Position numbers and translations under genes: made by a program | Notes under the pieces: generated by a model | Database searches by the model: none | Told to the model about the DNA's origin: nothing | What the model saw: only the letters and a program-made list of their open reading frames with translations | In this document: positions 6,577 to 63,957 of the stretch, piece by piece | Numbering within the stretch: position 1 is the stretch's first letter | Layout: the number at the start of each line of letters is the position of its first letter | From: Chryseobacterium turcicum | Lineage (GTDB): Bacteria > Bacteroidota > Bacteroidia > Flavobacteriales > Weeksellaceae | NCBI RefSeq assembly: GCF_021010565.1 | Contig: NZ_JAJNAY010000001.1 | Location: forward strand, 1,406,001 to 1,470,000 | Direction: 5' to 3' | DNA: 64,000 nucleotides

Positions 6577-6593
6577 TAATTGTACGAAATTTT

Positions 6594-7346: not shown

Positions 7347-7368
7347 TAATGTTTTCTAATAAATTAAT

Positions 7369-7376
7369 TATATTTG
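7369..7376 (+). promoter_or_regulatory. Candidate -7 promoter element TATATTTG inside the polysaccharide cluster
   Basis: TATATTTG matches the Bacteroidota -7 consensus TAnnTTTG and lies 17 bases before the ATG at 7393, in the only clear gap (46 bases) between the glycosyltransferase genes and the phosphoglycosyl transferase. No good -33 TTG was found upstream. It would give the last two genes their own transcript. Confidence 0.45.
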
Positions 7377-7392
7377 CAAGTATTCTGCACAA

Positions 7393-8355
7393 ATGATGAT
7401 TGTAAGCATGAAAAACTATTTAAATCTTTCTCGGATTTCTGAAAGATACCTATTTGTAAACATAAGTAACATCTCAGAGAAAATTTTTACTGAGGCTAAT
7501 TTTAGTAAGTCCTATAAATGTGTTTTTTTTAATTCCCAAACGGATAAAAAAAATATTTCAGAGTATATCTCTAAGCTAAATGTTAAAACTATTGTTATTG
7601 AAACTTCAGATTTAAATTATCTGCCGAAGAAAGTAACAGATGATATTATAGAAGCTAAACTTAAAGGAATTAAAGTTTTTGAAGTACATGAATTCTATGA
7701 AAAAATTAATGGTAGAATTCCTTTAGTGAAACTTAATGCATTTCAGTACTTAGCTGATGACGTTTTTTCAATAGGTTTAGACCAATTTGATTTTGCTTTT
7801 AAAAGAATTATTGATATTTTTGTTTGTATTCTTATTTTACCATTTGCTTTAATTATTATTTTATTAGGCTGTATCGGTGTTTTTCTTAGCTCTCCCGGAA
7901 ATGTTTTCTTTACTCAAGAAAGAGTGGGAAAGAATTCTAAAACATTTAAAATCTATAAACTCCGTACAATGACCAAAAAGCATAATGGAGATTTTACAAA
8001 AGAGAAAGATGACAGAATATTTCCTGTAGGAAAGTTTCTTAGAAAAACTAAAATTGATGAATTACCTCAGATATTTAATGTCATGAATGGTAACATGAGT
8101 GTTATTGGTCCTCGTCCCGAGAGACCTAAATATGTAAAAGAGTCTGTAGATGAAAACTCTTTTTTTGATTTAAGACATTTAGTAAAACCAGGTATTACAG
8201 GATGGGCTCAGGTCAACCTCCCTAAAGCAACGCCAAAAGACAATCTTAAAAAACTAGAGTATGACTTGTATTACATTAAAAGCTATACTCCTCTCTTAGA
8301 TTTTAAAATTTTACTAAAAACAATTAAAGTATTATTTACTTTTAATAGTAATTAA
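7393..8355 (+). CDS. Initiating sugar-1-phosphate transferase (WcaJ/PglC-type catalytic domain) with atypical N-terminus
   Basis: 320 residues from the first of three close ATG codons (7393, 7396, 7408). Residues 1-130 are a soluble region; CoA-binding/UDPG-like folds occur here in WcaJ homologues, but this one is short and lacks the usual four N-terminal membrane helices. From residue about 136 the PglC/WbaP core follows: the re-entrant helix FKRIIDIFVCILILPFALII, then SSPGNVFFTQERVGKNSKTF, KIYKLRTM, KTKIDELPQIFNVMNGNMSV, IGPRPERP and PGITGWAQVN. The family transfers a sugar phosphate to undecaprenyl phosphate to begin each repeat unit. Confidence 0.85.
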   Translation: MMIVSMKNYLNLSRISERYLFVNISNISEKIFTEANFSKSYKCVFFNSQTDKKNISEYISKLNVKTIVIETSDLNYLPKKVTDDIIEAKLKGIKVFEVHEFYEKINGRIPLVKLNAFQYLADDVFSIGLDQFDFAFKRIIDIFVCILILPFALIIILLGCIGVFLSSPGNVFFTQERVGKNSKTFKIYKLRTMTKKHNGDFTKEKDDRIFPVGKFLRKTKIDELPQIFNVMNGNMSVIGPRPERPKYVKESVDENSFFDLRHLVKPGITGWAQVNLPKATPKDNLKKLEYDLYYIKSYTPLLDFKILLKTIKVLFTFNSN

Positions 8356-46464: not shown

Positions 46465-49400
46465 ATGCCTACAAAAATTATTAGAAATCTTCAAATCGGA
46501 ATAGTACTTTCACTGGTGCTGCTTATCACAAGTTCCATAGCATCTTATATCAGCATTCAGAAACAGATGAAAAACCGGGAGAGCTTTATAAGAAGCAAAG
46601 AATCCATCATTTTTGTAAAAGATATCTTAAATTCTCTTCTGGATGCGGAGACTGGTAACCGAGGGTATCAGCTTACTCATCAGGAAAGTTTTCTCGAACC
46701 TTTTAATACAAGTAAACTTAAATATCAGTCGCTGGTTTCTAAAGCCGGCAAACTTAATATTACAGAAAAAAAACAGACGGATATATTTCAAAATTTATTG
46801 CGTACATCACAAGCGATGATGGAAGAAGGTGTTTTGCTCATAGAGAAACATAGGAAAGGAAATTTAATTACCGCACAAGAACTTTTACAGAATAGGACAG
46901 GGATGGATGCCTGTCGCAGGTTGGTTCAGGAGTTTGTTAAGCATGAGGAAGCTCAGCTAGCCATCACAAATAGAGATTTGAACAGGTCTTCTATATGGAC
47001 AGTATTATTTATTGTTTTTTCCGGTGCAGCAGCCGTCAGCGTGACTGTTTTTATTTACGTACAATTGAAATCTGATATTAAACGCCGAGACAGGTTGGAA
47101 AAGGATCTGTCTTATGCGAAGGAGTTGCTGGAGGAAACAAGTGAGGTCGCACAGGTAGGCGGATGGGAAGTCAATATGAAATCGGGTGAGCTGTTTTGGT
47201 CTCAGAGCACAAGAAAAATTCACAAAGTGAATAGCAATTTTCGACCAAATTTTGAAAATTTCCTCGGATTCTTCGAAGGGAAAAATGAGGAGAGAGTAAG
47301 ATATCTCTTCGATAAGGCTGCAAATGAAGGATTGGCTTTCGATGAGGAGCTTCAGCTTTTACGCAGTGACGGTATTACGGTATGGGTAAGATTGAAAGGG
47401 ATTCCCGAATTGGAAGGAAAGGTCTGCCAGAGAATTTTTGGAACCATCCAGGATATCGATTCTTACAAAAAGATGTTGCTGGAAATTACAAAGAAGGAAG
47501 CGATGATGCAGTCGTTTGTCAAAGATGTTCCTGTTCCTTTGGCGATGTTTGATAAAGATCTTAATTACATTGCTGTAAGCAGCAGATGGAAGGAGGAATT
47601 CGGAATAAACCGTAGAGAATTTATCGGGCACACTCTTTTTTCTAGTACGTTTCCTATGATTGAAGAAAACGGAATGGATATTTATCAGAATGCATTATCA
47701 GGAATTACTTATGTGAATAAAGATTTTACGCTGGAAGTGAAAGGCAGGAAAGATATTCAACATTATGACCTCAAAGTTGGACCATGGTATCTTGATAAAG
47801 ATCAGGTAGGAGGGATCATTATTTCTATACAAAATATCACCGATGAGGTTAGGATAAATGAAGAGCTTAAAAATGCGAAAGAGACTGCTGATATGGCCAG
47901 CAGAGCAAAATCTGAATTTCTCGCTAATATGAGCCATGAAATCAGGACGCCATTGAATGGAGTCATCGGATTCTCAGACCTTCTTTTGGAAACCCCTCTC
48001 AATGAAACACAGACACAATACCTGAAATACATCAATGATTCGGGAGAAAATTTACTTCATATCATCAGTGATATTCTAGATTTTTCGAAAATTGAATCAG
48101 GAAAAATGGAACTCTTGATTGAAGAAAGCAACCTGAATGAGATGTTGGATCAGGTTATTAATGTTATTCTTTATCAGTCTCAAAAGAAAAATATTGAGCT
48201 TCTTCTCAACGTAGAGCAGGGTCTTCCAACGATGCTTCTTATTGATGAAGCACGTTTAAAGCAGATTTTAATCAATCTGCTGGGGAATGCGGTGAAATTT
48301 ACAGCAAAAGGAGAAATAGAGCTGAAAGTTGAGAAATTGCAGATGGATGAGAAAAATATCGTTTTACGATTCTCCGTAAGAGATACAGGAATAGGAATTC
48401 CTGAGGATAAACAAAAATACATTTTCAATGCATTTACTCAGGAAAACAGTTCTATTAGCAAACGATATGGGGGTACCGGTCTGGGGCTTACGATATCGAA
48501 CAATATTCTGGGATATATGGGAACGCATCTCTTATTGATTAGTGAACCGGAAAAAGGGTCTACTTTTTTCTTCGATATCGAAATTCCTTATCTGATGACT
48601 GAGCCAGACGATGAGATGGAAGTTGCGATTGAGAGCGCACTGGTTGTGGATGATAATGAAACGAACAGGATTATTCTTGAGCATATGCTTGCTCACAAAA
48701 ATATAAGATCTACACTCGCTACCAATGGAATGGAAGCATTGGAAATCCTGATGAAAGGCGAACGATTTGATGTCATCTTGATGGATTACCACATGCCCCT
48801 GATGTCTGGTGTAGAAACAATTGAAAAAATAAGAGTACTCTTCAATGAGCGGAAAGAAGTAACTCCATTTATTATACTCTCTTCTTCTTCGGAAGAGAAA
48901 GAGATTAGTAACACCATTCGCGATAAAGACAATTCATATCTGCTTTTAAAACCGGTAAAATCAAATGATTTATTTAAAACTTTACGTAAAGCAGTCCACC
49001 GCAGCGTAGTTGATTTAACGCCGATTCAGTCTGAAATGAATTCGTATTCGTTCTCTCAGGACCTTGAAATTCTGCTGGTCGACGATAATCCCATCAACAT
49101 GATACTTAATAAAAGAATGATGGAATCGCTTGCTCCAGATGCAGTTTTAACGGAAGCAGTCAATGGAATGCAGGCATTAGAAGCATGCCAGAAAAGACAT
49201 TTTTCTATTATACTGATGGATGTGCAGATGCCAGTAATGAATGGTATCGAAGCAACAGAACAGATTCGGATGCTTCCTGGCTATGATAAAATTCCAATCA
49301 TTGGTGTGACAGCAGGTAATATAGCAGGTGAAAGAGAAAAATGTCTAGGATCAGGCATGGCAGATTTCCTTCCAAAACCTTTCAAGAAATCTGATCTTCA

Positions 49401-49824
49401 GGAAATATTACAAAAATATATCGGTGCTGATAGCAATACTAAAAATATAAATCAGGTTGTTAATGAGACGGTACCCTTATCAGAAATAGATATGAAACTG
49501 TATATCAACATCGATATGCTGAACGAACAGACAGGGGATAATTCTGATTTCAGGAAAATCTTTCTTGGGCTTCTGATTCAGGAGCTTGTTAGCGCAGAAA
49601 AAAACGTAAAAAAAGCAGCAGCAGAACAAGATATTGCAGAAATAAGGTTAATTCTTCATAAACTTAAGGGTACTGCCGGGAGTGCCGGATTTTTTAAATT
49701 GTCGGAATGTGTCCTGAAATGGGAAATGGTAAGTGATAATGAAATAGATTTATTTGTCTTGCAGAGTGATATACAACATGAAATAAAAATGGGATTAGAA
49801 ATTGCAAAGGATTTGATAAAGTAA
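46465..49824 (+). CDS. Hybrid sensor histidine kinase 1 (CHASE3-PAS-PAS-HisKA-HATPase-REC-REC-HPt)
   Basis: 1119 residues. Two membrane helices (about 9-30 and 174-197) bracket a CHASE3 sensor (LNSLLDAETGNRGYQLTHQE). Two PAS domains cover about 215-465. HisKA has His491 in NMSHEIRTPLNG; HATPase has RDTGIGIP and GGTGLGLTISNN. Two receivers have Asp774 (VILMDYHMP) and Asp919 (IILMDVQMP). The C-terminal HPt has His1065 in LHKLKGTAG. The phosphorelay must pass to a separate regulator, which is not visible here. From residue about 215 on it is paralogous to the kinase at 60049-63957. Confidence 0.93.
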   Translation: MPTKIIRNLQIGIVLSLVLLITSSIASYISIQKQMKNRESFIRSKESIIFVKDILNSLLDAETGNRGYQLTHQESFLEPFNTSKLKYQSLVSKAGKLNITEKKQTDIFQNLLRTSQAMMEEGVLLIEKHRKGNLITAQELLQNRTGMDACRRLVQEFVKHEEAQLAITNRDLNRSSIWTVLFIVFSGAAAVSVTVFIYVQLKSDIKRRDRLEKDLSYAKELLEETSEVAQVGGWEVNMKSGELFWSQSTRKIHKVNSNFRPNFENFLGFFEGKNEERVRYLFDKAANEGLAFDEELQLLRSDGITVWVRLKGIPELEGKVCQRIFGTIQDIDSYKKMLLEITKKEAMMQSFVKDVPVPLAMFDKDLNYIAVSSRWKEEFGINRREFIGHTLFSSTFPMIEENGMDIYQNALSGITYVNKDFTLEVKGRKDIQHYDLKVGPWYLDKDQVGGIIISIQNITDEVRINEELKNAKETADMASRAKSEFLANMSHEIRTPLNGVIGFSDLLLETPLNETQTQYLKYINDSGENLLHIISDILDFSKIESGKMELLIEESNLNEMLDQVINVILYQSQKKNIELLLNVEQGLPTMLLIDEARLKQILINLLGNAVKFTAKGEIELKVEKLQMDEKNIVLRFSVRDTGIGIPEDKQKYIFNAFTQENSSISKRYGGTGLGLTISNNILGYMGTHLLLISEPEKGSTFFFDIEIPYLMTEPDDEMEVAIESALVVDDNETNRIILEHMLAHKNIRSTLATNGMEALEILMKGERFDVILMDYHMPLMSGVETIEKIRVLFNERKEVTPFIILSSSSEEKEISNTIRDKDNSYLLLKPVKSNDLFKTLRKAVHRSVVDLTPIQSEMNSYSFSQDLEILLVDDNPINMILNKRMMESLAPDAVLTEAVNGMQALEACQKRHFSIILMDVQMPVMNGIEATEQIRMLPGYDKIPIIGVTAGNIAGEREKCLGSGMADFLPKPFKKSDLQEILQKYIGADSNTKNINQVVNETVPLSEIDMKLYINIDMLNEQTGDNSDFRKIFLGLLIQELVSAEKNVKKAAAEQDIAEIRLILHKLKGTAGSAGFFKLSECVLKWEMVSDNEIDLFVLQSDIQHEIKMGLEIAKDLIK

Positions 49825-51472: not shown

Positions 51473-52933
51473 TTATTCAGCTTCTATCACTCCACCTCTT
51501 GTGATAATTGGGAGTTGATCTGTAGTCTCAGAAGCAGTTATAACATCATCAAATCGGACTTTATTATCCTCAATTTTTGAACTTGGAATTTGTTTTAAAA
51601 TTTTCAAGTGATTTTGATAGTTCCTAATACCAATTGAAATTTGGAATGAAAAATCAGATGTTTTATAAGCTTTACCTTTGTAATTGATGGTCTGTACACC
51701 GCCTTTCACTTTTTGGAAAAACTCTTTAAACATTTCAATACTATAAGGGTTATTAGAAAAATCTGCAATATCCAAAGCATCATAATCAGCACTTAATGCT
51801 GCATGGCTGTGACAGGATATACACGATGCTCTTTGATTGTCAACAGGGCCATTCATTCTACCTCCGATTCCTAAATGGGTAACGTATGCTTGATCTAGAT
51901 TGTTTATGGATTTGTCATTTCTTATCAGTGAAGCATTAATGATATTTTCTGTGAGTTTTTCATTTATAAAATCATTTGGGAATCTATTGATATCATTCAG
52001 TTCATCAACATCATTATCCCAGCCTATTCCCACCGGTTCAAGTTTTTCATACCATTTTTCTCCTTTCTTGGCGTTATTATAGATAAATGTTCCAAATGCC
52101 CATTGTGTGTGTTTGGCTCTGGAATCTTTTACAGCAATATCCAGTTGAATCAATCTTACCTTTTTTACTAACTTACCGTTGATATTTTTCTTTACTGTAT
52201 TATCATAGATGTGAGCATCCCATTCCAAACTTCCTTTCAGGAAAGGCACTTCTTCAACAGGTGCATCAGTGAAAATCAGTTTAAAACATACTGTTCCTTC
52301 CGGAAAATCAGATTCGTCAATATTTGGAGCTTTCTCTTTCCATACTTTTCCAAAGGTATATCCTCCGGGCTCATTGTAAAAAGAAACTGCCCAAGTCTGT
52401 GAAGGATTTGTTTGCAAACTATGCAACTGACCTGGTCTGGAAGTAATTTCCTGAGTAAGTCCTCTCAATGCCTCTCTTCCTGCACCAACGTAGAGCGAAT
52501 CTTTGTTTGCATTGATAATGTATTGATCATCATTATGCATCCAGGGTGCATGATACCATTTTCTTTGTGTGTTTTTTTGCACTCTAAAATCATTTTCTAC
52601 ATTCCCTTCAAGACAATATTTTAAAACGGTATTCATGTAATCCTCATACTTATTCTTGTCTGTAAAATCGATGTCCTGCCATGGATATTTAAGGTTAGAG
52701 CCATCGTAACTCTGCGGATAATCTTGGCTGAGTTCGAAAGTTTTTCCTGAATATCCATCTGGTACTTTATAAAAAGTATTGTAATCCGGAAAACGGTCTT
52801 TATCGTTCGAAAAAAGCTTTTGAGTAGCAAAGAGTAATTCATTGTCAGATAATTTTTTGTTCTCTTTACAACCTATTGCTATAAGCATAAGCAGCATAGA
52901 GCAAAAGATTGCTCTTGTTTTTGTAGTTTTCAT
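51473..52933 (-). CDS. Lipoprotein with single c-type heme motif (cytochrome c family), redox operon gene 6
   Basis: 486 residues. The lipobox ends at Cys22 in LMLIAIGC. The body has family blocks I associate with uncharacterised bacterial cytochrome c family proteins: WYHAPWMH, GREALRGLTQE, WAVSFYNEPGGYTFGKVWKE, FPEGTVCFKLIFTDAP, LIQLDIAVKDSRA, TQWAFGTFIYN, LEPVGIGWDND and GRMNGPVDN. The heme site CISCHSHA is near residue 371. It is probably membrane-anchored in the periplasm, where it could take electrons from the dehydrogenase encoded upstream. It is the last gene of the six-gene minus-strand operon. Confidence 0.8.
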   Translation of the reverse strand: MKTTKTRAIFCSMLLMLIAIGCKENKKLSDNELLFATQKLFSNDKDRFPDYNTFYKVPDGYSGKTFELSQDYPQSYDGSNLKYPWQDIDFTDKNKYEDYMNTVLKYCLEGNVENDFRVQKNTQRKWYHAPWMHNDDQYIINANKDSLYVGAGREALRGLTQEITSRPGQLHSLQTNPSQTWAVSFYNEPGGYTFGKVWKEKAPNIDESDFPEGTVCFKLIFTDAPVEEVPFLKGSLEWDAHIYDNTVKKNINGKLVKKVRLIQLDIAVKDSRAKHTQWAFGTFIYNNAKKGEKWYEKLEPVGIGWDNDVDELNDINRFPNDFINEKLTENIINASLIRNDKSINNLDQAYVTHLGIGGRMNGPVDNQRASCISCHSHAALSADYDALDIADFSNNPYSIEMFKEFFQKVKGGVQTINYKGKAYKTSDFSFQISIGIRNYQNHLKILKQIPSSKIEDNKVRFDDVITASETTDQLPIITRGGVIEAE

Positions 52934-52957
52934 AGGTACTCGTGATTTTTGGTTAAA

Positions 52958-53764
52958 TTAAATATAATAAGCTCGCGTCTGAATTGCCGCTGGAGCCGAC
53001 ATACTAGTACGAACCGCAAAAGCCGGACTGTTGCCAATGAGAAACTCCATATCGGTTTTCATGATGTGATCAGAATTTCCATAAGTCATTTTTACTCGTT
53101 TTTGGCTTTCTTCTTCCGTTAAAAAATGAAGTTTTGTAGGTTGTAAAATATTCCACCTGCAGCCGATTAATTTATCTTCAAATTTTCCATATTCTGTGAT
53201 AGGAGAGAACGCAGACATTTCAGGAATAAGATCTTCTACATTTGCAACACAGGTGAAAATTGATTCTTTGCTGTCTTTAGGGTCATTGCACGTAACTTCC
53301 CATGTATTTTGTCCGGGAACATTCAGAGAAGGGAGATTTGTGGTAAATGTTGTCTTAAATTTTGGTTCGCCAAATAATTCGATTCCAGCTTTTATTGCCA
53401 TATCTGCATCGCAAGGAACGTGAACTCTTTTATGTCCCATCAATTTGGTTTGCTCTTCGCCACGAAGGTATTCTTCTGCACTTACGAAAGCTACAGTATC
53501 TTTCTGAGATTCCGGATAGCAAACGATATTAAGTTCTATTTCCTGAGTTGTGCTTGAGCCGTTTGGAAATTGTCCTGTATAATTTTGAAAATTAAAGCTT
53601 ACGATTGCTTTTCCATTAAAATCAGAAGCAATAAGTCCTGTATTCTCGAGGTATTTTAAAACTTTTTTTCGGTCTACAAGAAAAGCGACTTCAATGTTAT
53701 ATAAGGTTGCGTAATAAAACGGTAATCCAAATCCTTCAGGAATTGGAGGGAGTTGATTATTCAT
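52958..53764 (-). CDS. Acetoacetate decarboxylase-fold protein, redox operon gene 5
   Basis: 268 residues. IPEGFGLPFYYATLYNIEVA at the front, the beta-cone strands IVSFNFQNYTGQF and ELNIVCYPES, and IELFGEPKFKTTF near 125-137, where acetoacetate decarboxylases carry their Schiff-base Lys, place it in the ADC superfamily. The residue pattern is divergent, so decarboxylation is not assured; relatives act as aldolase-dehydratases. No signal peptide. It lies 24 bases upstream of the cytochrome gene. Confidence 0.7.
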   Translation of the reverse strand: MNNQLPPIPEGFGLPFYYATLYNIEVAFLVDRKKVLKYLENTGLIASDFNGKAIVSFNFQNYTGQFPNGSSTTQEIELNIVCYPESQKDTVAFVSAEEYLRGEEQTKLMGHKRVHVPCDADMAIKAGIELFGEPKFKTTFTTNLPSLNVPGQNTWEVTCNDPKDSKESIFTCVANVEDLIPEMSAFSPITEYGKFEDKLIGCRWNILQPTKLHFLTEEESQKRVKMTYGNSDHIMKTDMEFLIGNSPAFAVRTSMSAPAAIQTRAYYI

Positions 53765-53840
53765 GGTAAATAGTTTTTAGTTTTAAAAATATAATTCTAC
53801 GGCATCAAAAGTTACCGTAGAATTTTTAATTATTCAAATT

Positions 53841-55388
53841 TTATCCTTTATGATAAGGGCATCCGGAAGGTGGAGTTACGCTTTCAATTGAAGCAGGTAT
53901 TGTCATGCTCATCCCTGAAGGCGCATTAAAAAACTGTTCTTCTATTATTTTTCTTTGATTTGCAGGAATATCTTCTATTTTACGAAGTGTATTCACCTGA
54001 ATGTGTGGCCAGCTTGTCGTACCTCCATCATTTCCAAAATCAAATTCGAAAAATATAATCTGCTCGTATTGCAACTGAAGGATTTCTTTCCCATCTTCAA
54101 TCACAGTTTCAATCCAAAGATTAAAATCTATTTCAACGGTAGGTACAAAACGATTAACAAAAGGAACATTTAGAATTCCACCTTGCGCTCCAGTTTTCAT
54201 TTTTGATGATAATTGAACAAGTACATAATCGGTAACATTTTGTTCGCTCAAAGTATCTCTTAATCGCATATCGGGTCTTACGCAATAAGGATATAGCTCA
54301 TTGGCCAATATTCTCTGCGTATAAATTTTGTTTGAACCAGGATCGTTTTCATCATTTAAAGTCTCATGAACCCATGCCGGAGCCGGTTCGTCGAGGTTTA
54401 TAGCACCTCCAGCACCTCCCATAGTTGGTGAGATAGCAAGATGAGGTGGGTCCCAAGTTGCAAGACCGGTAGGGAATTGGGGAGCGCCGTTTCTAAGGTA
54501 ATATACTTTATTATCTTTACTTTCAGGGGTAATATCTCCCAATACGGTAATGGTGCTTCCGTGAGGGATAACTCCACTTCTTGAGATAGAATAATCAGGA
54601 ATAAAATAAGGTCCTTTAATTCCATCCATTGGTTTTATTTCTTGTGCAGGAATGATCTCATAATATTGCTGTCCTTCTTTTAATTGGCTTAAAAGAATGT
54701 ATGAAGAATTACCGTTTTCGTCTTTTACTTCAACCAAAGGCTCATTTCTGTATTCTCCTTTATATCCGTATTTTTCAAAATCTTCATTAGAAAAGGCATG
54801 AATTCCACGGTCTCTTTTAATGGTTTCTTCAGTTGCAGCGTAATTGTAAACGTCGCTTAACCAAAGATACATTCCGTTTTCTTCGTGAATTCCGGCATAT
54901 TGTAAATCTGGATTTCCTTCTACTTTATTGACGCTTTTAATGGTTTGATCGTATTTTACAGCGCCACAAAATAATTCTGTTGCACCACCACGGTTACGAA
55001 CACCACCCGGAACGATTTCGAATGTTAATTTTTCAATATATTCTTCAGTATCAAAACTGAATTTCCCCGGAATTGTATTTTGATTAGTACCCGGAGAAGG
55101 CATAATCGTTGTATGAATTCCGCTTCCTAATGATGGTCTGTCAATATTTTTATTGTAATTGGCATTATAACTTACCCAAGTTCCATCCAGTGCTGCTAAA
55201 ACTCCATAATCAACATTATTTGCTATTTCATTTAGGTTTTCTTCTCTGAAAGGTCTTACAGGATCATCAATTAATAGCTTTGAGTAGCCATCCATTAATT
55301 GCTCTAAATAACCTTTTTGTTCTTCAGGTAAAGCTTTTAATAATCTCGCGTTAAGATCCTGAATAATCTCTTTTTTTCTTTTTAACAT
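53841..55388 (-). CDS. 515-residue protein with possible lipocalin/heme-binding-like barrel, redox operon gene 4
   Basis: A helical N-terminus (residues 1-50) precedes ALDGTWVSYNANYN, the kind of Gly-Thr-Trp start seen in lipocalin and nitrobindin barrels. Then come FDTEEYIEKLTFEIVPGGVR, NRGGATELFCGAVKYDQTIK and HEENGMYLWLSDVYNYA. The centre is rich in Gly and Pro. The C-terminus ends SGCPYHKG, a Cys-Pro-x-His tail that might bind metal or heme. No signal peptide. I do not firmly recognise the family; a ligand- or heme-binding role is inferred. Confidence 0.65.
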   Translation of the reverse strand: MLKRKKEIIQDLNARLLKALPEEQKGYLEQLMDGYSKLLIDDPVRPFREENLNEIANNVDYGVLAALDGTWVSYNANYNKNIDRPSLGSGIHTTIMPSPGTNQNTIPGKFSFDTEEYIEKLTFEIVPGGVRNRGGATELFCGAVKYDQTIKSVNKVEGNPDLQYAGIHEENGMYLWLSDVYNYAATEETIKRDRGIHAFSNEDFEKYGYKGEYRNEPLVEVKDENGNSSYILLSQLKEGQQYYEIIPAQEIKPMDGIKGPYFIPDYSISRSGVIPHGSTITVLGDITPESKDNKVYYLRNGAPQFPTGLATWDPPHLAISPTMGGAGGAINLDEPAPAWVHETLNDENDPGSNKIYTQRILANELYPYCVRPDMRLRDTLSEQNVTDYVLVQLSSKMKTGAQGGILNVPFVNRFVPTVEIDFNLWIETVIEDGKEILQLQYEQIIFFEFDFGNDGGTTSWPHIQVNTLRKIEDIPANQRKIIEEQFFNAPSGMSMTIPASIESVTPPSGCPYHKG

Positions 55389-55412
55389 GGTATATTAAGT
55401 TTATTGGTTGTA

Positions 55413-56903
55413 TTAATTTGTTGGATACTCAAAAGTTGGCCCTGCATTGTATTGAGAATCTAATGGTTGACTCATCAATCCGATTGCTTGTTCTTTTAAT
55501 GCATACATATACATTACTGATTTTGGCAATTCTTCAGCATTTCCTTCTACCGCAGCCTGAATTGCATCCAACAATTTTTTGTAAGTCATATTAAAAGCTT
55601 TTCCTTGCTCAAATAATGCTGGATTTGATTGATAATCTGCAATTTTAGGATTGGGTTTCATCGGGTAAGCGGCGCTCCAGTCAACAGGAAGAGGTTTTCC
55701 GACCGGTGGAGTAGTAACAGGCATCATTCCGTTTTCATCTGTAAAAGGACTGTAATCTCCGCCAACATAAAAATGCTCATGGAAAACCTCTTTAAATCTA
55801 AAATAATGCGCCAGTTCGGCACCTTCCTCAAACTGAGAAGAATCTACATCAAAAATAGAATCATCCGCACCTTCACCTTGACCTTTAATTTCCTGAAAGA
55901 CAAGAATTACACCTGCTAAAGCATCAACCGGATGCAGTTTTCCACCGCTTCCGTAATATTGTTCCGGACGGATTTGTTTTGCGGGATCTCCGGTGAAAAT
56001 TCCGCCTTTGTTTAATTCTTCAAAATTCTGTGGAAGTGTTCCGTGTTCTTTGTAATAAGCAATGATTTGGAAAACAACAATGTAAAAGAATAATACATCG
56101 TAATATTCACCAATTGTATGAACATTCTGCATCATAAAATCTTTCATGTTTTCCAGATTCCAGAAATTATTTTCCTGTACTGCACTTCTTGAAAGTAAAT
56201 TAGAAGTTTCAATTTCAGGAGTATATTTCGGAGCCTTTACCAAAGGATTGCTCGGGCTTTCAATAGCGATAAAAGTCGCAATACTGTTTGATGAAAATGT
56301 TTCTAAACCAACGTAGAAATCAACATTCATAGGCAATTTCATTGGATAGCTTGGATAATTTTGTGGTCTGTTTACCGATGGCTGAATACTTACTGCATTC
56401 ATTACATTACAAACCATGATCATGTGAAGCATTTCTTCTACAGCGACACTTCTGATGATTTGTGAAGCTAAAACATTGGTTCCGTCTTTAATGGAATATA
56501 AAGCTGTAAGATATGGGGGAATTGTAGAATGCTCAATCAGAATTGCAGTCTGTAAAAGATCCTGTAAAATAGGACGGTAATCTAATTCTATTAATCCTTT
56601 TTTAAATTCAGAAAGTTGTCCTTTTGAAAGTTCCGCAGAAGGTTTTAAGTTTGAAATTTTACCAGAAAATTGTGAACTTAAATATGCATTAAATTCTTTA
56701 ATCTGATTATTTAATAACAGGTTTGTGAGTGTTTTGCTGTGGTATTTTAATCCTTCAATCCAGTCTTGTTTATTTATAGTTGAATCAAATAATAATGACT
56801 GGAGTGAAATAGCTTCTGCTTCGATTGTATTTTGCGCTAAAGAACTTCTTGAAGAAATATTAGTTTCCTGAGGTTCTGTTTTATTGATAAGTCTTTGTCT
56901 CAT
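55413..56903 (-). CDS. Ferritin-like diiron protein (VioB/RebD N-terminal type), redox operon gene 3
   Basis: 496 residues from the ATG at 56903 (MRQRLINKTEPQ); the frame extends upstream into the GMC gene but that part is not natural. Residues about 155-215 carry the ferritin-like signature LLQTAILIEHSTIPPYLTAL, YSIKDG, SVAVEEMLHMIMVCNVMNAV. The Glu-His and Glu-x-x-His residues could bind a diiron centre. Further ligands may be in AHYFRFKEVFHEHF. This domain occurs at the N-terminus of VioB and RebD, which dimerise imine forms of amino acids in violacein and rebeccamycin synthesis. It starts 5 bases after the GMC stop. Confidence 0.78.
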   Translation of the reverse strand: MRQRLINKTEPQETNISSRSSLAQNTIEAEAISLQSLLFDSTINKQDWIEGLKYHSKTLTNLLLNNQIKEFNAYLSSQFSGKISNLKPSAELSKGQLSEFKKGLIELDYRPILQDLLQTAILIEHSTIPPYLTALYSIKDGTNVLASQIIRSVAVEEMLHMIMVCNVMNAVSIQPSVNRPQNYPSYPMKLPMNVDFYVGLETFSSNSIATFIAIESPSNPLVKAPKYTPEIETSNLLSRSAVQENNFWNLENMKDFMMQNVHTIGEYYDVLFFYIVVFQIIAYYKEHGTLPQNFEELNKGGIFTGDPAKQIRPEQYYGSGGKLHPVDALAGVILVFQEIKGQGEGADDSIFDVDSSQFEEGAELAHYFRFKEVFHEHFYVGGDYSPFTDENGMMPVTTPPVGKPLPVDWSAAYPMKPNPKIADYQSNPALFEQGKAFNMTYKKLLDAIQAAVEGNAEELPKSVMYMYALKEQAIGLMSQPLDSQYNAGPTFEYPTN

Positions 56904-56908
56904 GGTTT

Positions 56909-58972
56909 TTATTTTAAAATGTTTTCCAGATCTTTCAAAATGGATTCTACTGAACGAATGGTAAATGCTGATAAGGTTAAAGTAGGATTTGAAGTTCCCA
57001 AAGTGGTCATGTTTCCTGCACCAACGATATATAAATTCGGGTGATCCCAAGCTTTACAATAACTGTTGGTTACAGAGTCTGATGCGTCGTGACCCATTCT
57101 GTGAGTTCCCACGATATGACCAGCTCCGTTGTAAGAGTATCTTACATTATTGTAAATGAAAGTGTTGTTATCTGTAGCGTTGTACTTTGTAAAATCATCA
57201 ATTCCTAATCTTTTAAACATTTGGTCAGAAGCGAGTTTTGCCTGTTCCATGGCTCTCATTTCATAATCCGTTAGTTCATAATTGATAACAGGACGCGGAA
57301 TTCCCAAAACATCCAAATATTGATCATTTATGGTGACTCTGTTGTTTGGATTGGGTAGCTGTTCAATTTCAAAATGGAATAAAACCTGTCTAGAAAGTCT
57401 GTAAGCCAAAGCTTCTTTTAATTTTTCACCGAAAAGACCTTGTCCCAAAAACTCTGAAAGATCAGATCCCGGCGAGAAAGTCGGCCAGCTCCATCCCCAA
57501 TTGTCAAGAGGAGAGATCCAAGCAGAAAAATCGCTTCTGAAATTTCCGTCACGGAAAGACGAAATATTGGTGGTAGAACCGGGTCCTCTGTAAGAATAAA
57601 CGGGATCTGGGAACAGTCCCCAAGTCAGCATTACCATGTGATCCATCAAATTTCTTCCGACTTGGTCGCTGTTGTTGGCGACAGTTTTTTCAACTTTTTG
57701 CCCGTCTTGAATAACGGTATATTTTGAATTTAAAAGAATTTTAGGATTTTCAAAAGCATTGGCTGCAAGGATTACAATTGAATCATTTGTATCTATTACT
57801 TCTTCAATAAAATCTGTTTTTTCCTTAGAAATATATCTTCTCAAATGAACTTTTGAGATTTTATCATGATCATGCTGATTGACACTTAATTTATAAACAA
57901 CACTCTGCGCTTGAACCTGAATGTGAGGATTTCTCTGTAGATTTTTGTTTTTATTGACTTTATATAAAGCTTTTTTCAAAGTCTTCAAAGCATTATATTT
58001 TGCCTGAACCGGGCAGATAGGAACACATGAAGCATTTCCTTCGCAACGTTCTCCCTGATAAGGATTCCATACTGCACCTAAAGCCTTATACTCTTCATTT
58101 TCAATATTGTTTAATGATAATTTATATCCCGATTCTGAAGAATTAGCTTTGATTAATTTTGCTTTTCCATAAGCAATATTTGGAGTAGAGTTTCTTCCCT
58201 GAGGCGAAGGAACCATCATCAACGGAATGTTCTCAAAGTTCAACTGAACTGAAGTTCCGGAAAGTCCTTTTATGATTTGGTTATCCATATAACTTTGCGG
58301 AATTTCATCCATAGGAAAAACATAGTCTTTACCATAATATTCTTCCATGCTTTCTTTAATAGGGTATTCCTGCGCTGCAACATTTCCTGAAACACCGATT
58401 TCAAATTCCGCCATTTCGTAATAAGGCTTCAAAATATCATAATCGATAGGCCAATCCATTCCTCTGCCGTATTTTTCTTTTAATCTAAAGTCATTGGGAA
58501 GCATTCTCGGTGTTGTTCCCAACCAGTGAAGGGTAGTTCCACCTCCAACACGGATAGCATCACTTGCAAAAGGCATGGGGCCCAACTGTACCAAATATCC
58601 TTTCTTATCTGGAAATGGTTGAACAATAGGCTGCATATCCAAAACATTAGGCGAAGGAGCCTGTTTCAAATCCGGGTATGGAGAATTCGGAACTTTTGCT
58701 TCTTCCATGTAAAATTTACGGATATAATCATTATAATTGACCATAGAAGAGGCGGAGTCTAGCTCCAGTCCGGCTTCTAATCCGGCTTCATACATTAGAA
58801 TTGATAATTCTTTATATGTTTTTGAATCGTTCATTTCTGAACGGTGAATCATTTTTTTTGTACCTGTATCAAAAACATGATCTGTTAAAAGCTTGGCAAT
58901 CAAAGATCCAGCAATTCCGGTTCCTACGATGATTACATCTTTTTTTGGCTGTATTTTTTCTGTCTGATTCAT
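56909..58972 (-). CDS. GMC-family FAD oxidoreductase (dehydrogenase large subunit), redox operon gene 2
   Basis: 687 residues. The FAD-binding start is DVIIVGTGIAGSLIAKLL. RVGGGTTLHWLGTTPRMLPN and the substrate-side CVPICPVQAKYN follow. The C-terminal GMC domain has GAGHIVGTHRMGHDASDSVT, with the conserved His, and LYIVGAGNMTTLGTSNPTLT. The pattern matches large subunits of membrane sugar/alcohol dehydrogenases (fructose, gluconate and sorbitol dehydrogenases). Its start overlaps the small-subunit stop by 4 bases. No Tat or Sec signal is visible. Substrate unknown. Confidence 0.9.
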   Translation of the reverse strand: MNQTEKIQPKKDVIIVGTGIAGSLIAKLLTDHVFDTGTKKMIHRSEMNDSKTYKELSILMYEAGLEAGLELDSASSMVNYNDYIRKFYMEEAKVPNSPYPDLKQAPSPNVLDMQPIVQPFPDKKGYLVQLGPMPFASDAIRVGGGTTLHWLGTTPRMLPNDFRLKEKYGRGMDWPIDYDILKPYYEMAEFEIGVSGNVAAQEYPIKESMEEYYGKDYVFPMDEIPQSYMDNQIIKGLSGTSVQLNFENIPLMMVPSPQGRNSTPNIAYGKAKLIKANSSESGYKLSLNNIENEEYKALGAVWNPYQGERCEGNASCVPICPVQAKYNALKTLKKALYKVNKNKNLQRNPHIQVQAQSVVYKLSVNQHDHDKISKVHLRRYISKEKTDFIEEVIDTNDSIVILAANAFENPKILLNSKYTVIQDGQKVEKTVANNSDQVGRNLMDHMVMLTWGLFPDPVYSYRGPGSTTNISSFRDGNFRSDFSAWISPLDNWGWSWPTFSPGSDLSEFLGQGLFGEKLKEALAYRLSRQVLFHFEIEQLPNPNNRVTINDQYLDVLGIPRPVINYELTDYEMRAMEQAKLASDQMFKRLGIDDFTKYNATDNNTFIYNNVRYSYNGAGHIVGTHRMGHDASDSVTNSYCKAWDHPNLYIVGAGNMTTLGTSNPTLTLSAFTIRSVESILKDLENILK

Positions 58973-59415
58973 GAATTACTGTTTACAGGTTTAAGATTCC
59001 AAGATTTAAAGCCGGGCTGTTTTGCTCCTGGTGGATGAGCGTGCATGACGTTCCAAACCAATCCTTCTTTGTAAGATAAATCGTTGACGTAAACACCTTC
59101 CCAAGTTCCCAAATACCAAAGAGTGATTACACTTTGAGCGATTCCTTGAGTTGAAGGTGCAGATAAAATTTTAGCAGAAATTACATGAGTCAGTTCTTCT
59201 TGAGTTTGAGAATTTTCAATACTATTTTTAGAAATATTCAAGAATTCTATGAATGTTGCCAATTCGATATGATTGAGAATATAGCTGTAGTAAATTTCTG
59301 CTAAACCAGTAGATTGAAGTTCATTAAGGGTAAATCCTGTGAGAGATTCTGAAATTGTCATGAACACACCGTAGTAGTAATCATCGACGTTGAGGATTTT
59401 GTTATTGATAATCAT
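58969..59415 (-). CDS. Small subunit of a sugar/alcohol dehydrogenase (sorbitol/fructose dehydrogenase type), redox operon gene 1
   Basis: 148 residues. FMTISESLTGFTLNELQSTG near the front and the C-terminal QSVITLWYLGTWEG, YKEGLVWNVMHAHPPG and GFKSWNLKPV match the small subunits that accompany GMC dehydrogenases. In those systems the subunit carries a Tat signal and escorts the flavoprotein to the periplasm; here the N-terminus is short and has no twin arginine. A candidate -7 element (TATTTTTG on the minus strand, 59568-59575) gives a leader of about 150 bases. First gene of the operon. Confidence 0.75.
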   Translation of the reverse strand: MIINNKILNVDDYYYGVFMTISESLTGFTLNELQSTGLAEIYYSYILNHIELATFIEFLNISKNSIENSQTQEELTHVISAKILSAPSTQGIAQSVITLWYLGTWEGVYVNDLSYKEGLVWNVMHAHPPGAKQPGFKSWNLKPVNSNS

Positions 59416-60048
59416 TTTGTAAAATTTGGTGTTAAAAAGCCATCCTTATAAATCATTATGAAGGCTTTAATACAATTGGAATAATAAAATAAAGAATGCC
59501 AAGTCGTTACTTAGCTAAAAAAGTTATAATTTCTTTTTGTATACATAGTTGTTAGTTTTTATTAATTCAAAAATATAGAATCAGTACTGCAACTACTTCC
59601 GTATTTATACGTAAAATACGAGTTGTCAGATATTTGTAATTGTTATAAATAAAAATTACTTCGGTCGGAAATAGAAAAGTGCTAAAGCCTCCATTTCACG
59701 CAATGATTTCTACCAAATTTCAGGAACATTTTAAAGAAGAACTCATAAAGATTTTGACAGTAGGATTTAAGGCGGAGCTTTACTGTTTTTTGACATAAAT
59801 TTTTGCTTGAAATCTTATCGTTTTTTTTCGTTGAATAGGTAAAATGAGTCGATGAAAGCAGATGTTATTTTATAATCTGTAAACTTCAGAGCAAGATTTT
59901 TATCATTTTATTAATCCTTTTTTGAATAAGTAGGAGTTATTGTGTTTACAAGCCTGTAATTGTGTTTATAAATAAAAATTTTATAAAAACTTATTTGTAT
60001 AAATACTATAATGATATTTATTTATTTTTAAATAATTTAGCGGCTAGT
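59416..60048. promoter_or_regulatory. Divergent control region between the redox operon and hybrid kinase 2
   Basis: 633 bases without a gene. For the operon, TATTTTTG on the minus strand (59568-59575) is the best -7 element; a TTG lies 14 bases further upstream, closer than usual. No convincing promoter was found for the kinase. The region is very AT-rich; no clear terminator or operator palindrome was seen. The frame of the kinase is open back to a GTG at 59962, but the added residues do not look like part of the protein. Confidence 0.4.
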
Positions 60049-63000
60049 ATGATGAAGTATATTACTCCTGATAATGAGATGGGAAGATTGAAAAAATTAG
60101 AATTTTTTCATCTCCTGAACTTAGGTAAAGACCCCCAATTTGATGTTTTTGCAGAGACTGCATGTTTGATTGCCGATTGTCCAGCTTCTTTAATTGCGAT
60201 TATGGAAAGTGAAACGCAGACCATCCAAAGCTGTATAGGTCTTGAAATTGATTCTGTAGAGCGCAAGAATACGGTTTGCCAGTATTCGATAGCAAGCGGA
60301 GAAGTGGTGATTATTAATGATACGCTTTTGGATGAGAGATCTAATAGCAACCCATTAATCTTGCAAGGAGGGATACGATTTTATGTAGGAATACCTTTTA
60401 TTGACGAAGAAGGCTTTGCATTAGGAACACTTTGCGTGATCGACTATAAGCCTAGAACAATAACAGAGAGTCAGATTACAGCACTCAAAAAGCTTTCAGA
60501 TGTTATTTTGAATCTTTTAAAGGTAAAGAGAAAGACAATTTATGCAGAGTATTTTCAGCAGCTCTTCAATATATCCAATAATCTGATTTGTGTTTTAAAT
60601 GACGAATTGAAGCTTAAAGATTTCAATCCTGTAGTAGAAAAAATATTTTCTTTAAAGAAAAAAGAAGCGATTGGGTTTGGTTTCGACCAGGTTTTTGGTG
60701 AAGATAATGAAGAGCTTTCAAAGCTTAAAAACTTTCCAGAGAATGGTCAGGAAGTATCTTTTACTACTTCTACACTCATTGAAGACGGTAGTTCTGTGAC
60801 GATAGAATGGTTATTGAAGCCAAATCAGGAAATTTCTGAAGTTTTCTGTTTCGGAATCAACATTACCGAACAAATAGAGGAAAAACGCCAGTTGGAAAGC
60901 TCGGAGAGACGCTTCAGAAGCTTCTTTGAAAACGCTATCGGTTTGATGAGTATGCATGATATGGAAGGCAATATTCTCGCTGTTAATGAAAAAGGGAGAG
61001 AAACATTACAATATTCTATAGATGAAGTAAAAGATTTAAACCTTAGAGATCTTGTTCCTGAGCATAGGTGGCCTTTTTTAAACCAATATCTTGATCGGAT
61101 TAATAAAAATAAGGAGGATTTCGGAACCATGATTCTGAAGGCAAAGAATGGGGTAGAGCACATCTGGATGTACCACAATCTTGTTGAGATAGATGAGGAA
61201 GGAAAGCCTTACATAGTGAGCACTGCATTGAACGTCACCGAAAGAATGACCTTAGAGAAAGATTTGATTCACACAAAAAAAATGCTGGAGCAGACAAGTT
61301 CTGTAGCTCAAGTAGGAGGCTGGGAAGTAAATTTAAAAAAAGACACTGTATTCTGGTCTCAAAGTACCAAAGAAATTCATAAGATAAGTAACGATTTTCA
61401 GCCTAACTTAGAAAATGCTATTGGTTTTTATAAAGAAGATAGCAGAGAAAGAGTTAAATTTTTATTCAACAGAGCGGTAACAGAAGGAATTCCGTATGAT
61501 GATGAATTTCAGCTGGTGCGTAATGATGGTGTTACAATCTGGGTTAGGGTAAAAGGAATTCCGGAATTTGAAAATGGTGTTTGCATCAGGGTTTTCGGGA
61601 TAATTCAGGATATTGATGTTTTCAAAAATATGTTTCTGGATATTGCTAAAAAAGAAGCAATGATGCAGTCGTTTGTAACGTATGTTCCCGTTGCAGTGGC
61701 AATGTTTGATAAAGACCTTAATTATATTTCAGTAAGCAGCAGATGGAAAGATGAATTCGAAATGAATGAGGCTGACATTATAGGAAAGAATATTTTTGTT
61801 GTATCACCAGACATTCCTGAAGAACGAAAGGAAATTTATCGTGATGCTTTGCAAGGTAAAACTTATATCAATGAAGATCTTGCAATCAGTATTGAAGGCA
61901 AAGAAGAAATTCAGCATTTCGACTTTAAGGTGGGGCCATGGTATCTTTCAGATAACGAAATCGGAGGGGTGATTGTGTCTGTACAAAATAGTACCAATTC
62001 TGTACACACCAACGAAGAGCTTAAAAATGCAAAAAAAATGGCTGATATTGCAAGTAAAGCAAAATCAGAGTTCCTTGCGAATATGAGTCATGAGATACGC
62101 ACACCTCTCAATGGAGTGATTGGCTTCTCAGATCTTCTTTTGAGAACTCCTCTTAACGATATTCAGACCCAGTATCTTAATTATATTAATGAATCGGGGG
62201 AAAACCTCTTGAGCATTATTAATGATATTCTTGATTTTTCTAAAATAGAATCCGGTAAAATGGATCTTCTGATCGAGAAAAGTGACGTTTATGACATCGT
62301 AAGTCAGGTTATTAATGTGATTCTGTATCAGTCTCAGAAAAAAAATATAGAACTCCTTCTTAATATAGAGCAAGGGCTTCCAAAAACTCTGTTACTTGAT
62401 GAATCGAGATTAAAGCAAATTCTTATCAACCTTCTGGGGAATGCCGTAAAGTTCACGGAACAAGGCGAGATTGAGCTTAAAGTAGAAAAACTCAGCATGG
62501 ATGATAGCAATATCGTTTTGCGATTTTCTGTAAGAGATACAGGAATTGGTATTCCCATCGAAAAGCAAAAACATATTTTTGATGCTTTCACTCAGGAAAA
62601 CAGCTCTATCAGCAAGCGTTACGGAGGAACCGGTCTCGGTCTTACCATCTCAAACAATATTCTTGGTTATATGGGAAGTCATTTGTCATTGATCAGCACC
62701 CCTGAGAAAGGTTCGGTATTTTTCTTCGACATTGAAATTCCTTATGAAATATCAGAATTGAAAGAAGAAGACGAACTTACTATAGAAAAAGTGCTTGTAG
62801 TAGATGATAATGAAGCCAACAGAATCATCCTTCAACATATGCTTAGCTATAAAAATATAGAAGCTACACTGGCTGCCAACGGAATGGAAGCTTTACAGAT
62901 ACTGCTGAAAGGTGAACATTTTGATGTGATATTGATGGATTATCATATGCCGGTAATTTCCGGATTAGAAACCATTGACAAGATCAAAGAGCTATTTAAT

Positions 63001-63957
63001 GAGCGAAATGAGACTTCACCATTGGTCATTCTTCATACTTCTTCAGAGGAGCACGATGTCATTAATTCTTTCCGGAAGGAAGATAATTCTTATTTCCTTT
63101 TAAAGCCTATTAAATCTGATGATCTTTATAAAACACTCAGACGTGTGGCACAAAATAATGTGACAGAAGTTGTGGCTCTGGAGCATTCTGAAGAAGATGA
63201 GTTTTCTTTTATGAAAGAGCTTGAAGTACTCTTAGTAGACGATAACCAGGTAAATATGGTGTTGAATAATAAAATGATGAGATCGCTTACACCTGATGCT
63301 AACCTTACAGAGGCGGTAAACGGCCTTGAAGCTTTGGAAAAATGTAAGAAAAAAGTTTTTTCTATTATTCTGATGGATGTACAGATGCCGATGATGAATG
63401 GTATTGAAGCTACACAGCAAATCCGTCTCTTACCCGAATATAAAAACGTACCCATCATTGGGGTTACAGCAGGAAATGTCTTGGGCGAAAAAGAAAAATG
63501 TCTGGAATCGGGAATGAACGATTTTCTACCAAAACCTTTGCGACAGACAGATCTTTCAGAAATGCTCAAAAAATATATTGCCATTAAAGAAGATAAAAGT
63601 GTTGAAGCAGAAACTGAAATATTAACTGGGAAATACATCAATATGAATATGCTGAATGAGCAGATTGGTGATGATGACGATTTCAAAAAAATATTTTTAA
63701 ACCTTGTCATTAACGAGCTTGTCCAGACAGAGAGTAATATTGCAACCACAGCAGCAGAAAAAAATGGGAACGATACCAAAATGATTCTTCATAAGCTTAA
63801 AGGCACTGCCGGAACTGCTGGCCTTTTCAGGCTTTCAGAATGTGCATTAAGATGGGAAAAAATAGCAGATGAAAATATAGATTTTTCAGCTATGGAGAAA
63901 GAAATAAAAGAAGAACTAACAATAGGATTAAATATTATAAAAAGTTTAGTAAAATAA
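60049..63957 (+). CDS. Hybrid sensor histidine kinase 2 (GAF-PAS repeats-HisKA-HATPase-REC-REC-HPt)
   Basis: 1302 residues from the ATG at 60049 (MMKYITPDNEMGRLKKLEFF). No membrane helix is visible, so it is probably cytosolic. A GAF domain covers about 15-165 (FAETACLIADCPASLIAIME, IPFIDEEGFALGTLCVID). Four PAS-like domains follow to about residue 650. HisKA has His681 in NMSHEIRTPLNG; HATPase, receivers with Asp964 and Asp1110, and HPt His1248 in LHKLKGTAG complete it. Its last 870 residues parallel hybrid kinase 1. It is divergent from the redox operon and may control it through an unlinked regulator. Confidence 0.92.
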   Translation: MMKYITPDNEMGRLKKLEFFHLLNLGKDPQFDVFAETACLIADCPASLIAIMESETQTIQSCIGLEIDSVERKNTVCQYSIASGEVVIINDTLLDERSNSNPLILQGGIRFYVGIPFIDEEGFALGTLCVIDYKPRTITESQITALKKLSDVILNLLKVKRKTIYAEYFQQLFNISNNLICVLNDELKLKDFNPVVEKIFSLKKKEAIGFGFDQVFGEDNEELSKLKNFPENGQEVSFTTSTLIEDGSSVTIEWLLKPNQEISEVFCFGINITEQIEEKRQLESSERRFRSFFENAIGLMSMHDMEGNILAVNEKGRETLQYSIDEVKDLNLRDLVPEHRWPFLNQYLDRINKNKEDFGTMILKAKNGVEHIWMYHNLVEIDEEGKPYIVSTALNVTERMTLEKDLIHTKKMLEQTSSVAQVGGWEVNLKKDTVFWSQSTKEIHKISNDFQPNLENAIGFYKEDSRERVKFLFNRAVTEGIPYDDEFQLVRNDGVTIWVRVKGIPEFENGVCIRVFGIIQDIDVFKNMFLDIAKKEAMMQSFVTYVPVAVAMFDKDLNYISVSSRWKDEFEMNEADIIGKNIFVVSPDIPEERKEIYRDALQGKTYINEDLAISIEGKEEIQHFDFKVGPWYLSDNEIGGVIVSVQNSTNSVHTNEELKNAKKMADIASKAKSEFLANMSHEIRTPLNGVIGFSDLLLRTPLNDIQTQYLNYINESGENLLSIINDILDFSKIESGKMDLLIEKSDVYDIVSQVINVILYQSQKKNIELLLNIEQGLPKTLLLDESRLKQILINLLGNAVKFTEQGEIELKVEKLSMDDSNIVLRFSVRDTGIGIPIEKQKHIFDAFTQENSSISKRYGGTGLGLTISNNILGYMGSHLSLISTPEKGSVFFFDIEIPYEISELKEEDELTIEKVLVVDDNEANRIILQHMLSYKNIEATLAANGMEALQILLKGEHFDVILMDYHMPVISGLETIDKIKELFNERNETSPLVILHTSSEEHDVINSFRKEDNSYFLLKPIKSDDLYKTLRRVAQNNVTEVVALEHSEEDEFSFMKELEVLLVDDNQVNMVLNNKMMRSLTPDANLTEAVNGLEALEKCKKKVFSIILMDVQMPMMNGIEATQQIRLLPEYKNVPIIGVTAGNVLGEKEKCLESGMNDFLPKPLRQTDLSEMLKKYIAIKEDKSVEAETEILTGKYINMNMLNEQIGDDDDFKKIFLNLVINELVQTESNIATTAAEKNGNDTKMILHKLKGTAGTAGLFRLSECALRWEKIADENIDFSAMEKEIKEELTIGLNIIKSLVK

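Follow-up and report, generated by a model that had tools for sequence, protein, structure and literature searches.

A four-gene core of flavoenzyme, ferritin-like, and FMP-type peroxidase genes in Chryseobacterium turcicum, with a predicted nitrobindin-type barrel

The DNA described here is a window of 64,000 nucleotides from the 4.48-Mb genome of Chryseobacterium turcicum (NCBI RefSeq assembly GCF_021010565.1, contig NZ_JAJNAY010000001.1, positions 1,406,001 to 1,470,000 of the forward strand). Six of its genes, all on the minus strand and lettered A to F in transcription order, comprise, as judged by sequence comparison, a four-gene core A-B-C-D and two lineage additions, E and F (all coordinates are positions in the 64-kb window). 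The core consists of A (58969..59415, 148 amino acids), a small subunit of the kind found in flavin adenine dinucleotide (FAD)-dependent sugar dehydrogenases that carries no twin-arginine translocation (Tat) signal; B (56909..58972, 687 amino acids), a GMC flavoprotein; C (55413..56903, 496 amino acids), a ferritin-like PF12902 protein with an expected diiron site; and D (53841..55388, 515 amino acids), a member of the FMP-type peroxidase family with a predicted nitrobindin-type heme barrel and large insertions. We tentatively read the core as a soluble cytoplasmic flavin/iron–sulfur oxidase module with diiron (C) and heme-barrel (D) partners that handle an oxygen-derived oxidant—a reading that may well be right, although we stop short of calling it probable. 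A and B overlap by 4 bases, and the gaps measure 5 (B/C), 24 (C/D), 76 (D/E), and 24 bases (E/F). These reading frames and spacings agree with an earlier note on this DNA, which had taken all six genes for one operon; the genes are real and A to D are linked, but the unit is narrower, being a four-gene core with variable add-ons. The idea of a unit for small-molecule oxidation with flavin, expected diiron, and heme parts is supported by the families and conserved residues described below.

C and D travel together. The genus was surveyed in 148 genomes, the class in 198, and the phylum in 395. D exceeds its family cut-off in 64 genomes of the genus, and full-length C is present in 53, all of which also contain D (Fisher 1.3e-29, not corrected for phylogeny). 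The two genes stand side by side in 49 of these 53 genomes, and in one more genome (G261) a 36-residue piece of C survives. Because full-length C never occurs without D (0 of 148) and 53 genomes have both, the set is not a chance neighborhood. The earlier note had left it to be seen whether the six genes ever co-occur elsewhere; they do, in two further genomes (G248 and G253) besides the window's own (G000), that is, in three of 148. D is rare outside the genus, the class survey yielding only the window's own genome over the cut-off (1 of 198). Across the 395 phylum genomes, the model NF040572 (heme_bind_FMP) is over its cut-off in 10 and PF12902 over its own in 13, with both in nine (Fisher 1.2e-14, likewise not corrected for phylogeny); in five of the nine the pair is less than 10 kb apart (G000, G199, G493, G521, and G633, the last with the genes on opposite strands). 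In the Bacteroidota at large, the small-subunit–GMC–ferritin-like set occurs in G633 and G702.

The oxidase that accompanies D is exchanged among loci. A contig scan with an alignment of D relatives matched 127 stretches; 108 of them held up, and the 80 best were retained as loci; partners were counted in same-strand runs with gaps below 450 bases, and families were named from one representative each. Small subunit, GMC, C, and D form one block in 39 of these best 80 loci. In eight others D stands beside a DAO-type and/or VioA-like flavin oxidase; in five, beside ferritin-like, weakly LodA-like, radical S-adenosylmethionine (SAM), and QhpG-like proteins; and in three, beside a ferritin-like protein with or without LodA/LodB (L086 having only the ferritin-like gene recognized). 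Hence, D, with C, is read from this variety of oxidase partners as an oxygen-handling half and not as the enzyme of one pathway. A likeness to the LodA/LodB and GoxA/GoxB quinoprotein oxidases is seen in two Oceanospirillales loci (L085 and L088), where ferritin-like and FMP proteins lie inside a LodA/LodB cluster; the window operon, in contrast, contains no LodA-type protein. Fusions of some LodA-like proteins to a domain of the catalase fold, not necessarily a catalase, are described, and in fungi PF12902 genes are described as neighbors of lodA/lodB (PMC4417212).

Two further arrangements were noted among the loci. L060 (11661-18356), together with L061, L062, L067, and L071, represents Flavobacterium clusters in which an FMP protein and a ferritin-like protein accompany a LodA-like protein of great divergence, a radical SAM enzyme of the QhpD kind, and a flavoprotein of the QhpG kind; families were scanned in L060 only, and such clusters possibly encode a quinoprotein that is matured by both routes. 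L142 (2991-12092) holds in one run an FMP-like barrel, a thiamine pyrophosphate-dependent enzyme, a VioA-like oxidase, a ferritin-like protein, a small cysteine-bearing protein, an MbnB-type enzyme of ribosomally synthesized and post-translationally modified peptides (RiPPs), and a DUF2063 protein. The run of L143 is similar, with families scanned in L142 only.

Parts of the set recur in distant bacteria. In Agrobacterium, the small-subunit–GMC–ferritin-like genes lie near iolE, a TIM-barrel sugar isomerase/epimerase, a GH15 gene, and a gene for an FMP-like heme protein; in Pararhizobium, they lie beside iolE, a sugar isomerase/epimerase, and an FMP-like protein, the small gene being a putative A homologue; and in Pseudoalteromonas, they lie beside iolE and a sugar isomerase/epimerase, with GH15 nearby on the other strand. 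Gloeothece has the order GMC–ferritin-like–small subunit, with a Dyp-type peroxidase gene just upstream and a glucan glucosidase gene on the other side. Homologues of E are found beside small-subunit–GMC–ferritin-like genes in Ruegeria; beside a GMC gene in Streptomyces, where the small gene is not confirmed as A-like; and in Cupriavidus beside GMC-type genes, one of which is 38% identical to the GMC2 gene 3' of E in locus L082. The absence of any described counterpart, as suggested previously, is too strong for the parts of the set, although a literature search on FMP peroxidases and on LodA/GMC with ferritin-like proteins found no characterized pathway that contains the whole: the small-subunit–GMC–ferritin-like trio recurs in Alphaproteobacteria, Gammaproteobacteria, and Cyanobacteria and E-like genes accompany GMC genes in Ruegeria and Streptomyces. 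On plasmids, six of 165 records with C relatives and five of 12 with FMP-like heme proteins were inspected. Among the C relatives, that of Rhizobium CC283b has none of the core-type genes annotated nearby, that of S. meliloti ml56 has no annotated GMC gene, and that of Azospirillum belongs to a VioB-like pair; two of the five FMP-like records are the rhizobial clusters of Agrobacterium and Pararhizobium. A protein of 650 to 669 amino acids adjoins the ferritin-like protein in L057 (12097-15121) and in L124 of Azospirillum (5035-8149), and the weak VioB match of the Azospirillum protein points to a VioB-like enzyme whose parts are encoded by separate genes.

By score, D is an FMP-type peroxidase: it matches NF040571 of NCBIfam with 600.2 bits (cut-off 300) over positions 1 to 360 of the 360-position profile, and its best-scoring named matches are from Chryseobacterium. 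Peroxidase activity and a bound heme would follow from the family name. A literature search found, among the papers listed, no published description of this family and no experiment on its activity. No Pfam family matches D at E<=1, including the nitrobindin family PF08768; searches against the Protein Data Bank (PDB) by sequence gave chance matches or none, and no relative of D was found in viral contigs. A catalase, a DyP, or a plant-type peroxidase was rejected for D, as none of these matched in the Pfam or NCBIfam scans. The AlphaFold2 model of D built from 133 sequences reaches a mean confidence (pLDDT) of 88, compared with a poor 58 for an earlier model from 23 sequences, and displays an antiparallel β-barrel of the nitrobindin fold—the possible barrel that the earlier note had suspected. 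Foldseek alone ranked haemophore, pore, or porin proteins first, with E above 0.001; the match to nitrobindin (19% identity) comes instead from VIA-align and from profile comparisons. Herein, alignment A5 matches alignment A4 with a probability of 97.8 (E 1e-12, 186 columns), and alignment A3 (132 long forms and one short) matches A4 with E 5.8e-7 over 110 N-terminal columns; the control, A5 against A6, gave E 0.49. A3 against L125 alone is weak (E 0.14). L125 itself passes PF08768 and matches NF040572 with 5e-12 and 46 bits, below the cut-off of 150, and neither L125 nor L126 retrieved anything from the PDB. By predicted fold and profile, D is therefore placed as a relative of the nitrobindins that lies outside the Pfam nitrobindin family.

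We propose H462 of D (codon 54003..54005, minus strand) as the proximal heme ligand. This position is histidine in 133 of 133 sequences of A3 and in 12 of 13 of A5, the remaining one having a gap, and it aligns by profile with the invariant histidine of PF08768-type barrels; the start and end of the aligned stretch in the structural match, read ungapped, would place residue 463, not H462, at the known nitrobindin histidine. The CPxH tail noted previously is real, with the sequence GCPYHKG (CPYH at 53850..53861, minus strand); by motif search, 70 of the 80 D relatives have a CP tail, and the distant FMP-like relative in L142 carries CPYH near its N terminus instead of its C terminus. Compared with nitrobindins of about 160 amino acids (Rv2717c, the C-terminal domain of THAP4, and AT1G79260), D is far larger, with 515 amino acids and large insertions; it also exceeds the Oceanospirillales members of NF040571 by about 150 residues. 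Nitrobindins are described as trapping nitric oxide (NO) and isomerizing peroxynitrite (PMC6275384, PMC7915275), and their function has also been called obscure (PMC9599043). One locus, L031, comes from a record titled Glaciecola amylolytica THG-3.7; its D gene is 73% identical to that of the window, a value also met among the Chryseobacterium loci, and the label may be wrong.

Family matches and alignment agree with the earlier assignment of A and B as a small subunit and a GMC protein of the sugar-dehydrogenase kind. B matches GMC_oxred_C of Pfam with 79 bits and FAD glucose dehydrogenase (6a2u) with E 5.9e-59. Its cysteine triad, C310-X5-C316-X3-C320-P (58013..58045, minus strand), aligns with the cysteine-rich region that binds the 3Fe–4S cluster of that enzyme, and CX5CX3CP is kept in 39 of 39 B relatives and in four of four proteobacterial and cyanobacterial relatives. 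Hence, by sequence, the GMC subunit has the three 3Fe–4S cysteines of the FAD glucose (GDH) and fructose dehydrogenase (FDH) complexes, the cluster itself being predicted. A matches PF12318 (FAD-SLDH) weakly, with 20.3 bits against a cut-off of 24.2. Searched against a set of 20 proteins, a profile of 41 A sequences finds small hypothetical genes beside GMC and ferritin-like genes (E 2.5e-15 to 4.6e-23), which confirms homologues in Agrobacterium (two), Pseudoalteromonas (one), and Gloeothece (one). In FAD glucose dehydrogenase, the 3Fe–4S cluster is described as relaying electrons from FAD to a multiheme cytochrome c subunit, and the small subunit as a Tat hitchhiker (PMC6719666). No twin arginine is present at the start of A, and RR occurs within the first 45 residues in one of 40 A relatives only, probably through the choice of an upstream start; because A has no Tat signal, A and B are expected to be cytoplasmic. 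The operon encodes no multiheme cytochrome c subunit, its sole heme-c gene being F with a single CxxCH. Thus, the likeness to Burkholderia GDH and Gluconobacter FDH lies in the GMC catalytic subunit with CX5CX3CP and in the adjoining small-subunit gene; the window set differs in having neither Tat signal nor multiheme cytochrome and in having ferritin-like and heme-barrel proteins instead. A and B are related to the FAD dehydrogenase complexes but fail two of their defining features. At L090 (8355-8594; G000:C1:1662354-1662593), short stretches 77% identical to the start of A and 76% identical to an internal piece of B adjoin each other between two genes of the source genome; they are apparently the remains of a second small-subunit–GMC pair.

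C matches the ferritin-like family PF12902 with 180 bits, and the motif EEMLH is present in all 40 members of its cluster (39 Chryseobacterium-type loci and L057). The domain of the VioB/RebD type ascribed to C in the earlier note is thereby confirmed, whereas identity with VioB was rejected, as the VioB model TIGR04492 gave no match at E<=1. In the VioA/VioB (violacein) and RebO/RebD systems, a flavin oxidase adjoins a PF12902-type ferritin-like protein, as it does here; the window set differs in that C has no VioB match and B belongs to the GMC family and not to the amine oxidases.

The boundary of the core after D, with E, F, and a second barrel as add-ons, follows from the genome comparison and from a terminator-like hairpin between D and E (53793..53824, minus strand; 12 pairs and a T-rich tail). 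Hairpins with T-rich tails are in excess in the window (15 observed, 5.5 in shuffles). A stricter script, which disallows G–T pairs and does not flag the window's own D/E hairpin, finds such a site 3' of D in 15 of 39 relatives and 3' of C in one of 39, the latter being a weak control because the region after C is mostly coding DNA. A promoter scan of the window showed no excess (29 sites, 33 in shuffles).

E (52958..53764, minus strand, 268 amino acids) is a distant relative of the acetoacetate decarboxylase (ADC) family, as judged from a weak match to PF06314 (16.8 bits, cut-off 29.8); against the PDB, its sequence gave chance-level matches to metallo-β-lactamases. The GEPKFK region is kept in the 10 E sequences compared, some of them from the same genome, and FGEPKF is found in the Cupriavidus and Ruegeria relatives; its lysine may correspond to the Schiff-base lysine of acetoacetate decarboxylase. 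E occurs in 10 of 148 genus genomes, always adjoining C or D, and is followed in seven of the 10 by a second FMP-like barrel of about 345 amino acids (sometimes with one gene between) and in three by F. F (51473..52933, minus strand, 486 amino acids), the rarest add-on, is by its sequence a heme lipoprotein, optional and presumably periplasmic, whose start resembles a lipobox by eye; its single heme-c motif, CISCH, is present in the four F homologues compared. It would be a distant relative of the cytochrome P460 family: PF16694 matches F with 19.7 bits, below the cut-off of 27, and four of six members of its family at E<=0.01 (best 4.7e-5). Homologues of F are found in 12 of 148 genus genomes, three close, four at 46-48% identity, and five weaker. 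Both inspected loci of the 46-48% group (L134 and L135) have no A to E genes adjoining, and two plasmid relatives of F have no core genes alongside. None of the six proteins matches a PADLOC defense family at E<=0.01. The region is flanked on the plus strand by two long proteins, one on either side (46465-49824 and 59962-63957), which by eye resemble hybrid sensor kinases and have similar C-terminal halves.

The order and linkage of the genes, their families, a predicted fold, and conserved residues are shown by sequence; the cofactors, the complex, the electron path, the use of peroxide, the substrate class, and the role of E in the following course are inferred. A and B would form a complex, a GMC flavoenzyme that oxidizes a hydroxyl group of a small molecule—by analogy most likely a sugar, a cyclitol, or a hydroxy acid, with the genes around the relatives hinting at a sugar or cyclitol; a 3-keto-sugar pathway is not claimed for the rhizobial cluster. 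Electrons would pass from FAD to the surface iron–sulfur cluster of B. C, with its expected diiron site, and D, as a heme-barrel peroxidase, would act at the oxygen end, where they may reduce O2 or H2O2 or spend H2O2 once formed. Among the relatives, the oxidase half would be swapped (GMC with small subunit, amine oxidases, or LodA-type quinoproteins), while D, alone or with C, would stay as the oxygen-handling half. E, where present, may act on the oxidized product by decarboxylation or a related Schiff-base reaction.

Several observations weigh against this reading. In 25 of the 80 FMP loci, none of the partners named above is found, which counts against a strict rule, although L012 (with small subunit and GMC but no C as an open frame) and L017 (where a fragment of A remains next to D) are among them. 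D occurs without full-length C in 11 of 148 genomes (including G261), and C and D lie apart in four of 53 (G220, G222, G274, and G332); three of the five plasmid records with FMP-like heme proteins have no annotated oxidase adjoining. From the partnerless loci and the 11 genomes, it follows that D can work outside the module. The known chemistry of nitrobindins concerns NO and peroxynitrite. Iron–sulfur GMC enzymes are dehydrogenases that react poorly with O2; B may thus make little peroxide itself.

Other roles can be drawn from the same genes. VioA and VioB act on amino-acid imines in oxidative coupling, and a biosynthetic role can be envisaged in which the flavoenzyme makes a reactive intermediate that C and D couple or oxidize with H2O2 to give a small secondary metabolite. 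Some D relatives do adjoin VioA-like amine oxidases; that of Flavobacterium salmonis (L057) adjoins a ferritin-like pair of 650 and 352 amino acids, whose Azospirillum homologue has a weak VioB match, and a portion of the VioB model is matched by the ferritin-like relative in L060. The Chryseobacterium core, however, has no amine oxidase, its C protein has no TIGR04492 match, no biosynthetic partner is recognized after the core in the 39 loci, and the diversity of the oxidases favors a common by-product over a single product; we consider this role unlikely. Coupling aside, the neighborhoods also suggest maturation, with C and D installing or protecting a protein-derived cofactor or a peptide modification instead of acting on metabolites: relatives adjoin LodA-like proteins accompanied by maturases of the LodB, QhpG-like, and radical SAM kinds, and a C-type protein adjoins the MbnB-type RiPP enzyme in L142. 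As neither a quinoprotein nor a precursor peptide is recognized in the window core and a GMC enzyme needs no such cofactor, we regard it as very unlikely here.

Nitrosative defense would have D and F, or the second FMP-like barrel in place of F, detoxify NO or peroxynitrite with electrons from the flavoprotein. It would suit the trapping of NO and isomerization of peroxynitrite described for nitrobindins (PMC6275384, PMC7915275), the P460-like character of F, and the succession of E by a second barrel (seven of 10 genomes) or by F (three of 10). The recognized partners of D, however, are oxidases (55 of 80 loci), and the sugar-type GMC and ADC-like enzymes would be left unexplained, so that we consider this role quite improbable. 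Finally, the earlier note had likened the set to a cytochrome c-coupled dehydrogenase, and A and B could pass electrons via a heme-c protein such as F to the respiratory chain, in keeping with their kinship to FAD glucose and fructose dehydrogenases that use a multiheme c subunit (PMC6719666) and with the one heme-c motif of F. The analogy fits poorly: A has no Tat signal, A and B are expected to be cytoplasmic, a compartment other than that of the lipoprotein F, and close F homologues occur in three of 148 genomes compared with 53 for full-length C. A respiratory A-B-F complex was, therefore, rejected as the leading explanation for want of a Tat signal and because F is rare, and its chances appear slight indeed.

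The oxidase module with oxygen-handling partners fits into a wider proposal, which is possible but on balance doubtful. FMP-type peroxidases would be a class of heme peroxidases built on the nitrobindin barrel and would, together with PF12902 diiron proteins, form an exchangeable oxygen/peroxide half serving unrelated cytoplasmic oxidases of the GMC/3Fe–4S, LodA, and VioA-like types; in Chryseobacterium, a dehydrogenase otherwise tied to a membrane cytochrome would have turned soluble, with the diiron and heme pair as its sink. If true, a family otherwise found as a name only would gain a fold and a candidate heme ligand, the nitrobindins would be extended to peroxide chemistry, and a testable rule would be at hand for the PF12902 ferritin-like proteins that recur beside unrelated oxidases. 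A soluble iron–sulfur GMC enzyme independent of any membrane cytochrome would be of interest for biosensors and biocatalysts.

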